The notes beneath the pieces were generated by a model. It was not told the origin of the DNA, did no database searches, and was given only the letters and a program-made list of their open reading frames with translations. Positions 53,718 through 56,075 of a DNA stretch of 64,000 nt are shown piece by piece. Where the stretch lies: the NCBI RefSeq assembly GCF_011043525.1, contig NZ_JAAKGO010000007.1:186001-250000 (forward strand), read 5' to 3'. The stretch is from Sphingobacterium sp. SGG-5 (GTDB lineage: Bacteria > Bacteroidota > Bacteroidia > Sphingobacteriales > Sphingobacteriaceae). A program made the position numbers and the translations under genes. Every line of letters starts with the position of its first letter. The stretch's first letter is position 1.

Positions 53718-53791
53718 GGTCTGGTAGTTCAGCTGGTTAGAATACATGCCTGTCACGCATGGGGTCGCGGGTTCGAGTCCCGTCCAGACCG
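53718..53791 (+). tRNA. tRNA-Asp (anticodon GUC), first copy
   Basis: A 74-nt tRNA. Acceptor arms are GGTCTGG and CCAGACC with discriminator G. The anticodon stem is CATGC/GCATG with loop CTGTCAC (anticodon GTC). T-arm GCGGG-TTCGAGT-CCCGT is canonical. CCA is not encoded. Confidence 0.97.
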
Positions 53792-53825
53792 CTAAAATTC
53801 TCTTACAAAATACATAATAATAATA

Positions 53826-53899
53826 GGTCTGGTAGTTCAGCTGGTTAGAATACATGCCTGTCACGCATGGGGTCGCGGGTTCGAGTCCCGTCCAGACCG
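53826..53899 (+). tRNA. tRNA-Asp (anticodon GUC), second identical copy
   Basis: This is identical over all 74 nt to the copy at 53718-53791, with a 34-nt spacer between them. The pair is presumably co-transcribed and processed. Confidence 0.97.
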
Positions 53900-53904
53900 C
53901 TAAC

Positions 53905-54101: not shown

Positions 54102-54695
54102 GTGAGTAAGATAAAGCATATATTACCATATGAAGTTTCCGATCAAGAATTGATAACGGGAATAGCACAAGGTGATAGTAGGGCTATCAATAAATTGTAT
54201 AAATTCTTCTTCCCGTCGATATCTCGTATGATTATCAACAACAACGGGTCTGACGATGAAGCAAAGGATATATTTCAGGATGCTGTGATGGTTTTATATG
54301 ACAGACTTACTCAAGGTAAATTTGAGCTAAATAGTAAGCTTAGTACTTTTTTGTATGCTGTCAGTAGACGACTGTGGTTGAAGCACCTTACCCGGAAAGG
54401 AGTAACCTCGAAAACATCGGATATATCAGATTTTGAGGATATTCTAAAAATAGAGGATGATGTCGAACGACACGAAATTATTGAGAGCAACTTTAGACAA
54501 ATGAGTTTTGCATTAGAACAGCTTGGTGAACCTTGCAAGACTTTACTACATGACTTTTATATAGTAAATATGTCTATGCAAGAAATCAAGGAAAAGTTTG
54601 GTTATACGACTACCGACAACGCAAAGACACAAAAGTACAAGTGCTTGCAGCGGCTCAAAAAACTGTTTTTTAATACAAGTAAATTAGACAAGTAG
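54102..54695 (+). CDS. ECF-type RNA polymerase sigma factor
   Basis: A 197-residue ECF sigma factor. Region 2 is visible in LYKFFFPSISRMIINNNGSDDEAKDIFQDAVMVLYDRL (pieces), and region 4 in GEPCKTLLHDFYIVNMSMQEIKEKFGYTTTDNAKTQKYKCLQRLKKLF, with the helix-turn-helix near 160-190. The start is a GTG at 54102; no ATG lies close in frame. Unlike the sigma factor at 35005-35601, it has no FecR or SusC partner. Its stop is only 2 bp before the start of a membrane protease with an anti-sigma-like N-terminus, its probable regulator. Confidence 0.9.
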   Translation: MSKIKHILPYEVSDQELITGIAQGDSRAINKLYKFFFPSISRMIINNNGSDDEAKDIFQDAVMVLYDRLTQGKFELNSKLSTFLYAVSRRLWLKHLTRKGVTSKTSDISDFEDILKIEDDVERHEIIESNFRQMSFALEQLGEPCKTLLHDFYIVNMSMQEIKEKFGYTTTDNAKTQKYKCLQRLKKLFFNTSKLDK

Positions 54696-54697
54696 TC

Positions 54698-55786
54698 ATG
54701 AGGCGACAAGATTTTTTGGATTGGGCAGACCAATACATGAGAGGGGAATTATCAAAAGAAGACCAGATTGCATTTGAAGAATATTGCAAAGAACATCCTG
54801 AAATAACTGTATTGCTAGAAGAACATACCTCGTTCTTAAAACTCTGGAAAGATACAGAGGAAAGAAAAGCACTTCGTCTTGCACTGGCTAAGGAAGGTAA
54901 AAATATTAAATCAAATTCTTCTCTTTTTTCCAGTCAGAAAATACTTTCATTGTGGAGCCGTTTACAGATTAATGCGGCTGTTGCAGCAACCGTTGCATTA
55001 GTGTCCGTATTTTCTACATTATGGTTGACAGGATATTTTACAAACATCAAGAAAGCCACGACAGATTACAGTGCTTTACGCCGAGAAATGAATTCGGTAA
55101 AGAGAAATGTAAATGAACAAAACAAGGTCATCCGGGATATTAACAATAATAAAACAAAAAACACAACACCCATACACTTTGGTGCGACAGGTTTTATGCT
55201 AACAAAAGACGGATATGTAGTAACCAACAACCATGTCATTAACGGTGCAGATTCGGTACATCTTCAAAACAGTAAGGGACAATCGTTTCGCGCGAAAATT
55301 GTGTATTCAGATGCCATCAAGGATCTGGCAATCCTCCATATTGACGATACCGGTTTTAAACCGCTCAAAAACGTGCCTTACACCTTCAAAAAGCAAAAAT
55401 CTGAACTCGGAGAGGATATCTATACAATTGGTTTTCCACGCGACGAGGCCGTATATGGTCAAGGCTATTTAAGTTCTAATACAGGATATGTCGGCGATAC
55501 TATAGCCTATCAGATTTCTATACCGGTCAATCCAGGGAATAGTGGTGGCCCCGTATTGGATAACCAAGGGAATATTATCGGAATAATATCGGGTAAACAA
55601 AAAGGTATCGATGGGGCAGCCTTCGCTATTAAAACAAAAGAATTAATAGAAACCTTGAATCGGATACCTGCCGACTCCCTGAAAGGAAATATTGTATTGA
55701 ATAATAAAAATACGTTAGCTAACCTGCCTCGGACAGAGCAAATCAAGAAATTACAAGATTATATCTATATTGTCAAAGTATTTTAA
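54698..55786 (+). CDS. Membrane-anchored trypsin/HtrA-like protease with anti-sigma-like N-terminal segment
   Basis: A 362-residue protein with three parts. Residues 1-60 (WADQYMRGELSKEDQIAFEEYCKEHPEI in part) resemble the N-terminal helical segment of Bacteroidota anti-sigma factors but lack the HxxxCxxC zinc site. Residues ~92-113 are a transmembrane helix, followed by a short coiled coil (~124-150). Residues ~158-325 are an S1C trypsin-like domain with the triad H179 (TNNHV), D209 (IKDLAIL) and S282 (NPGNSGGP). No PDZ domain follows. Topology puts the protease outside and the N-terminus inside, beside the co-transcribed sigma factor. The regulatory role is inference; the protease assignment is secure. 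Confidence 0.88.
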   Translation: MRRQDFLDWADQYMRGELSKEDQIAFEEYCKEHPEITVLLEEHTSFLKLWKDTEERKALRLALAKEGKNIKSNSSLFSSQKILSLWSRLQINAAVAATVALVSVFSTLWLTGYFTNIKKATTDYSALRREMNSVKRNVNEQNKVIRDINNNKTKNTTPIHFGATGFMLTKDGYVVTNNHVINGADSVHLQNSKGQSFRAKIVYSDAIKDLAILHIDDTGFKPLKNVPYTFKKQKSELGEDIYTIGFPRDEAVYGQGYLSSNTGYVGDTIAYQISIPVNPGNSGGPVLDNQGNIIGIISGKQKGIDGAAFAIKTKELIETLNRIPADSLKGNIVLNNKNTLANLPRTEQIKKLQDYIYIVKVF

Positions 55787-55871: not shown

Positions 55872-56075
55872 ATGCGGACCTTTTGGATATATTTTTTTAT
55901 CTTTTTGTGTTTGTCGGTCTTGACACAAGCTTTCCTTTATCTTTTTGGCACAGATCAATACAACTTAGACTTCCTACACGGGCTAGGCCAAATAGTTATT
56001 ATCACATTGATAGCTCTAATTGCCTCTTATACCCTACGAAAAAAGAAAAACGAATATAAAGAGAAAGCCAACTAA
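55872..56075 (+). CDS. Small two-helix membrane protein
   Basis: A 67-residue protein with two hydrophobic helices (WIYFFIFLCLSVLTQAFLYLF and GQIVIITLIALIASYTL) and a lysine-rich C-terminal tail, giving an N-in/C-in hairpin. It begins with an ATG 86 bp after the protease stop, and its stop lies inside a terminator-like hairpin. No family is recognised; it could be part of the protease operon. The good hydropathy pattern and the terminator support a real gene. Confidence 0.55.
   Translation: MRTFWIYFFIFLCLSVLTQAFLYLFGTDQYNLDFLHGLGQIVIITLIALIASYTLRKKKNEYKEKAN

Follow-up and report, generated by a model that had tools for sequence, protein, structure and literature searches.

We analyzed a window of 64,000 nucleotides from Sphingobacterium sp. 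SGG-5 (contig NZ_JAAKGO010000007.1, positions 186,001 to 250,000), in which an ECF sigma factor gene is followed, after a gap of 2 bp, by a gene whose product joins an N-terminal cytoplasmic domain, one membrane helix, and a periplasmic trypsin-like protease (Table 1). The sigma protein matches the sigma70-ECF model above its cut-off, as do residues 163 to 296 of the fusion protein the Trypsin_2 model, and the AlphaFold2 model of the 362-aa fusion has a mean pLDDT of 87.8. A first-pass annotation of this DNA had reported the gene pair at these coordinates, with an intact catalytic triad, a single transmembrane helix, and an anti-sigma-like segment devoid of a zinc site. We recovered both genes exactly as placed there and located the three triad codons; the sole hydrophobic stretch of the protein lies at about residues 92 to 113, and the Hx3Cx2C motif occurs at the N-terminus of 0 of 202 homologues. 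The anti-sigma-like segment is also present, but not with the extent of residues 1 to 60 first given to it, as it reaches about residue 76. Upstream of the sigma gene lies a tandem pair of tRNA-Asp (GTC) genes (53718-53792 and 53826-53900), and downstream of the pair a small predicted membrane protein is encoded at 55872-56075 (MRTFWIYFFIFL...RKKKNEYKEKAN), with relatives in the corresponding position in L070, L072, and L089.

Table 1. Features of the sigma-protease locus, in window coordinates.
Feature	Position	Strand	Basis
ECF-type promoter GGGTTAC-N16-GTATTAA	54069..54098	+	Exact motif match
ECF sigma factor gene, 197 aa, GTG start	54102..54695	+	TIGR02937, E=1.9e-17
Anti-sigma/protease fusion gene, 362 aa, ATG start	54698..55786	+	PF13365, E=6e-25
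Predicted class I anti-sigma domain, residues 1-76, without zinc motif, cytoplasmic	54698..54925	+	Profile homology; sigma plus domain model
Transmembrane helix, about residues 92-113	54971..55036	+	Hydropathy, alignment; helix 80-110 in model
xAA motif V95-A96-A97, cytoplasmic end of membrane helix	54980..54988	+	A96 and A97 in 265/265
Coiled-coil linker, periplasmic, about residues 114-160	55037..55177	+	Model: helix 124-149
Trypsin-like HtrA/DegS-type protease domain, about residues 161-322	55178..55663	+	PF13365; fold of DegS-deltaPDZ
Catalytic H179	55232..55234	+	280/280
Catalytic D209	55322..55324	+	280/280
Catalytic S282, within NPGNSGGP	55541..55543	+	280/280
C-terminal helix and strand, residues 344-362, conserved, no PDZ there	55727..55783	+	Model, conservation

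Nearly all genomes surveyed from two large bacterial families carry the sigma-protease pair. Of 301 genomes in the order, 299 have a homologue of the fusion protein (the matches listed are almost all full length), and so do 114 of 119 from a second family in the same class, probably Chitinophagaceae; named relatives come from Sphingobacterium, Parapedobacter, and Pedobacter. The gene immediately before the fusion gene, in the same orientation, is a sigma gene in 202/202 complete loci and then, in a larger set, in 280/280 (265 distinct), at gaps of -17 to +94 (median, 7), and therefore the layout is not due to chance. Four loci on incomplete contigs (L091, L096, L119, and L384) were left out of this scoring. 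Homologues routinely found without an adjacent sigma gene, an outcome set beforehand as refuting the first-pass interpretation, thus did not appear. In 395 genomes sampled across the phylum, the fusion protease and the sigma orthologue (E<=1e-47) were found in the same 29 when both genome lists were compared by hand, and seven genomes without the fusion protease also lack the sigma orthologue; the two genes are gained and lost together. Distant matches without the sigma gene (L001, L062, L097, L098, L181-L188, L195-L198, and L383) align mainly over the protease region and lack the anti-sigma half, and therefore they are not counterexamples; those inspected start with a lipoprotein- or signal-peptide-like sequence. 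Some of these related proteases (L181, L184, and L188, as well as L062) carry a lipoprotein-like N-terminus and an extra N-terminal region, and their genomes have no orthologous sigma gene beside them.

We then traced the nearest other sigma factors (n = 17) and inspected the gene after each. Eleven are followed, in the position of the fusion gene, by a gene for a protein that spans the membrane once and resembles the fusion at its N-terminus (L291-293, L296, L298-300, L302-304, and L306); the periplasmic parts of these proteins are unrelated to that of the fusion and are not trypsin-like proteases, and five of the eleven carry the Hx3Cx2C zinc motif. A profile built from the fusion family alone and run on 203 open reading frames placed 9 of these 11 proteins at the top (E from 3.6e-10 to 3e-4), the tenth-best frame reaching only E=0.15, and hhalign gave a 98% probability for the match between the fusion N-terminus and the sister anti-sigma factors. 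Profile comparison found no homology between the membrane and linker segment of the fusion and that of the sister proteins. Whole-genome scans with the zf-HC2 model matched the N-termini of the orthologues weakly but independently, and no Pfam or NCBIfam match to the N-terminal or autocleavage domains of RsgI or FecR was found in the fusion family. In the sigma tree, protease-paired sigma factors form one group (support, 0.68) that adjoins those paired with membrane anti-sigma factors (joint support, 0.94). The sister anti-sigma factors themselves look like a modular family in which sensor domains have been swapped.

Further evidence comes from an AlphaFold2 model of the sigma factor with the anti-sigma domain, in which the domains are confidently placed (pLDDT, 90; pTM, 0.84). 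This model joined both proteins into a single chain through a short linker and drew on 139 paired and single rows, without a sigma-alone control; in some genomes both genes are in frame, so that reading through the stop codon gave natural one-chain pairs. Foldseek returned the AlgU/MucA, BldN/RsbN, and sigmaE/RseA complexes among its best matches, all with TM-scores below 0.5, and the predicted arrangement is therefore no copy of any of the three. Coevolution by mean-field DCA (Neff, 180) was weak, with a top-10 excess over shuffles of 31% between sigma and residues 1 to 75, 23% between sigma and the linker, and 7 to 13% between sigma and the protease; it points only weakly to an interaction and is not decisive. 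Judged from profiles and model, residues 1 to 76 are a predicted zinc-free class I anti-sigma (ASDI) domain. The Hx3Cx2C motif is optional in this class and absent from about 44% of its members, and class I domains occlude sigma2 and sigma4 (PMC7406223). The profile homology and the confident model thus uphold the anti-sigma reading, and anti-sigma function is very likely, although no binding data exist and inhibition in cells is inferred.

The protease half keeps its catalytic residues. Its H-D-S triad is intact in 280/280 complete loci and invariant among 116 proteins of less than about 80% mutual identity, for which mean column identity is 43%, and the GNSGGP motif is kept with it throughout the homologues. 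A degenerate protease is thereby ruled out, and by these residues, in the absence of cleavage data, we regard the domain as conserved in active form. The domain model is closest to DegS-deltaPDZ (E=5e-13). As the first-pass annotation had it, there is no C-terminal PDZ domain: no PDZ model matches the protein or its 115 divergent homologues, 116 family members with the query, and where such a domain would begin the model has a helix (345-355) and a strand (356-361) at pLDDT 93 to 97. The fusion protease therefore has the DegS protease fold, yet is not a DegS. Between membrane and protease, the modeled linker is partly disordered, being of low confidence at residues 120 to 129 and 150 to 156; the whole linker is a candidate site-1 cleavage region. 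Apart from the fusion, the genome encodes a single HtrA-type protein that passes the family cut-off, a DegP-like protein (L001).

Within the membrane helix, which is commonly preceded by basic residues, A96 and A97 are the sole fully invariant residues across the 265 distinct sequences, and position 95 is restricted to V, I, A, M, or L. In RsgI of C. thermocellum, xAA motifs in the membrane helix become a tail recognized by ClpXP, and such tails are its substrates in vitro (PMC12203970). Given this precedent, the invariant A96-A97 is the best sequence evidence for regulated intramembrane proteolysis, and V95-A96-A97 is by analogy a candidate site-2 cut and ClpXP tag. Both criteria for a substrate of such proteolysis, an xAA motif and a genomic site-2 protease, are met, the latter by a single gene in this genome (PF02163, E=3e-60).

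Regions upstream of the sigma gene share a promoter-like signal. GGGTTAC occurs in 237 of 262 regions (2.2 expected from shuffles) and GTATTAA in 232 of 262 (15.3 expected), and both stand near the start codon with a 15- or 16-nt spacer, the range allowed in our regulon pattern, in 232/265 loci. The -10 element of the window promoter stops 3 nt before the GTG start; across loci this half usually stops 2 to 3 nt or otherwise mostly 10 to 14 nt before the start codon. Elements so close to the start suggest that across the two families transcripts of the sigma gene probably have little or no leader. A shortened motif has 171 copies in 71 genomes of the genus, with at least one in each, against 54 for the reversed control. 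Among non-sigma copies near examined loci, 133 precede a small lipoprotein gene (most, 57 to 86 aa); 36 first counted as non-sigma belong to sigma genes of untagged loci, and four are others. In the Sphingobacterium sp. SGG-5 genome, a gene for a 70-aa lipoprotein follows the copy at C52:217042-217070, and its product scores 42.7 bits against the NCBIfam PG1828-family lipoprotein model, below its cut-off of 50. An exact copy at C50:130632 and matches with two mismatches were rejected as targets, being no commoner than the control and so ascribed to chance. From these motif counts, and without expression data, the sigma factor appears to autoregulate its own operon; its main other target is predicted to be the approximately 70-aa lipoprotein, and its regulon to be very small. 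Lipoproteins of this kind (e.g., L388:1243-1455) are rich in Thr, Ala, Ser, Asp, and Lys after the lipobox Cys, and several genera have one to three copies placed divergently beside the sigma gene.

The pairing, the homology and docking of the anti-sigma domain, the invariant triad, the xAA motif, and the shared promoter are each supported computationally, and the explanation we favor, with moderate confidence, is a self-regulated two-gene envelope-signaling module in which a one-protein anti-sigma factor and site-1 protease acts through regulated intramembrane proteolysis. On the model of what is known for sigmaE, the anti-sigma domain would keep the sigma factor inactive at the inner membrane, and the DegS-like periplasmic half would serve as both sensor and site-1 protease. 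On a stimulus, the nature of which is inferred, the protease would cut the linker on the periplasmic side, either in its own chain or, with greater likelihood, in an adjacent copy. A site-2 protease (RseP) would next cut the trimmed stump in the membrane near A96-A97, in an order of events that is likewise inferred, and the xAA tail left behind would lead ClpXP to destroy the stump and free the sigma factor, which would then transcribe the operon that encodes it along with one to a few lipoprotein genes. Cleavage of the linker in cis or in trans is an inference without cleavage data, and it fits the invariant xAA motif as well as HtrAw of Brevibacillus, whose copies process one another's membrane anchor once unfolded substrate is supplied (PMC5359297), by analogy a direct precedent for a cut between neighbors. 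Only tentatively do we propose the fuller version, in which one chain holds the sigma factor, senses envelope stress, and cuts in trans, its output being itself and a feedback lipoprotein whose inferred role may be that of ligand, substrate, or inhibitor of the protease domain.

One objection to this self-regulated module is that another protease could make the site-1 cut. If that were the DegP-like protein or a processing peptidase, the N-terminus would remain an anti-sigma domain and the trypsin domain would serve to degrade damaged proteins of the envelope, as an effector whose production rises with sigma activity. The second HtrA protein in the genome, the position of the protease gene in a sigma-driven operon, and the usual role of HtrA proteases in quality control all speak for such an effector; we nevertheless think it unlikely, though a real contender, since it gives no account of why all 265 distinct sequences should keep an effector fused to the anti-sigma domain and leaves a fixed 1:1 ratio of effector to inhibitor without reason. 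The protease domain might otherwise be mainly a ligand sensor, in which binding of a peptide or lipoprotein shifts the chain and frees sigma or bares the linker, catalysis serving only to end the signal or remove the ligand. A lipoprotein under the same promoter is what a feedback ligand would look like, and the S1C peptidase-like domain of RsgI9 is reported to bind cellulose (PMC12203970), but retention of the full triad and GNSGGP would be unusual in a pure binding domain and the xAA motif indicates proteolysis, so that we judge this improbable.

Two further readings deny the N-terminus an inhibitory role. That it recruits or protects sigma at the membrane cannot be dismissed outright, inhibition being unmeasured in the fusion family, and yet its homology to class I domains, which occlude sigma2 and sigma4 (PMC7406223), together with the confident joint model, makes this very doubtful. 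That the protein is an ordinary HtrA protease with a sigma gene beside it by coincidence would suit a protease domain that is unremarkable on its own; the adjacency survey refutes it, and with 280/280 adjacency, joint loss, and a homologous anti-sigma domain to explain we give it practically no credence.

In the sigmaE pathway, the anti-sigma factor RseA and the sensing protease DegS are separate proteins. The present system shares with sigmaE/RseA/DegS of E. coli and with AlgU/MucA/AlgW an ECF sigma factor, a class I domain on a single-pass protein, a DegS-type protease, and a sigma-driven operon, and a site-2 protease is likewise present in its genome; it differs in that anti-sigma factor and putative site-1 protease are one chain, without a PDZ domain or an RseB-like gene in the operon, and with an apparently very small regulon. 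RsgI is likewise an anti-sigma factor with one membrane pass; it performs the first cut itself, as is only proposed for the fusion, and leaves an xAA tail read by ClpXP, and RsgI9 has an S1C domain as well, a reported cellulose binder (PMC12203970); RsgI, however, self-cleaves through a dedicated autocleavage domain rather than a protease, pairs with SigI rather than an ECF sigma factor, and has a different N-terminal domain. HtrAw, through the intermolecular removal of its N-terminal anchor (PMC5359297), resembles the fusion as proposed here, but it has a PDZ domain and no link to a sigma factor. Autoproteolytic FecR-type anti-sigma factors are known, as far as a citing article conveys (Bastiaansen et al. 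2015, cited in PMC10202637); they have no protease domain and are coupled to TonB-dependent transducers. The annotation's remark that no system of this build had been described agrees with our literature search, which found no description of an anti-sigma/protease fusion, although mention in a major ECF classification paper is not excluded. We thus regard the fusion as an apparently undescribed variant of RseA/DegS logic.

A survey found class I anti-sigma domains beside only 6% of Bacteroidetes ECF sigma factors, leaving control of the rest open (PMC7406223). The fusion system, which almost all genomes of two large families retain, is a candidate form of such control; its promoter is defined and its predicted regulon tiny. 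With sensor, inhibitor, and protease in one chain, the activation of an HtrA protease during signaling could be tested by point mutations in one gene and a single reporter.
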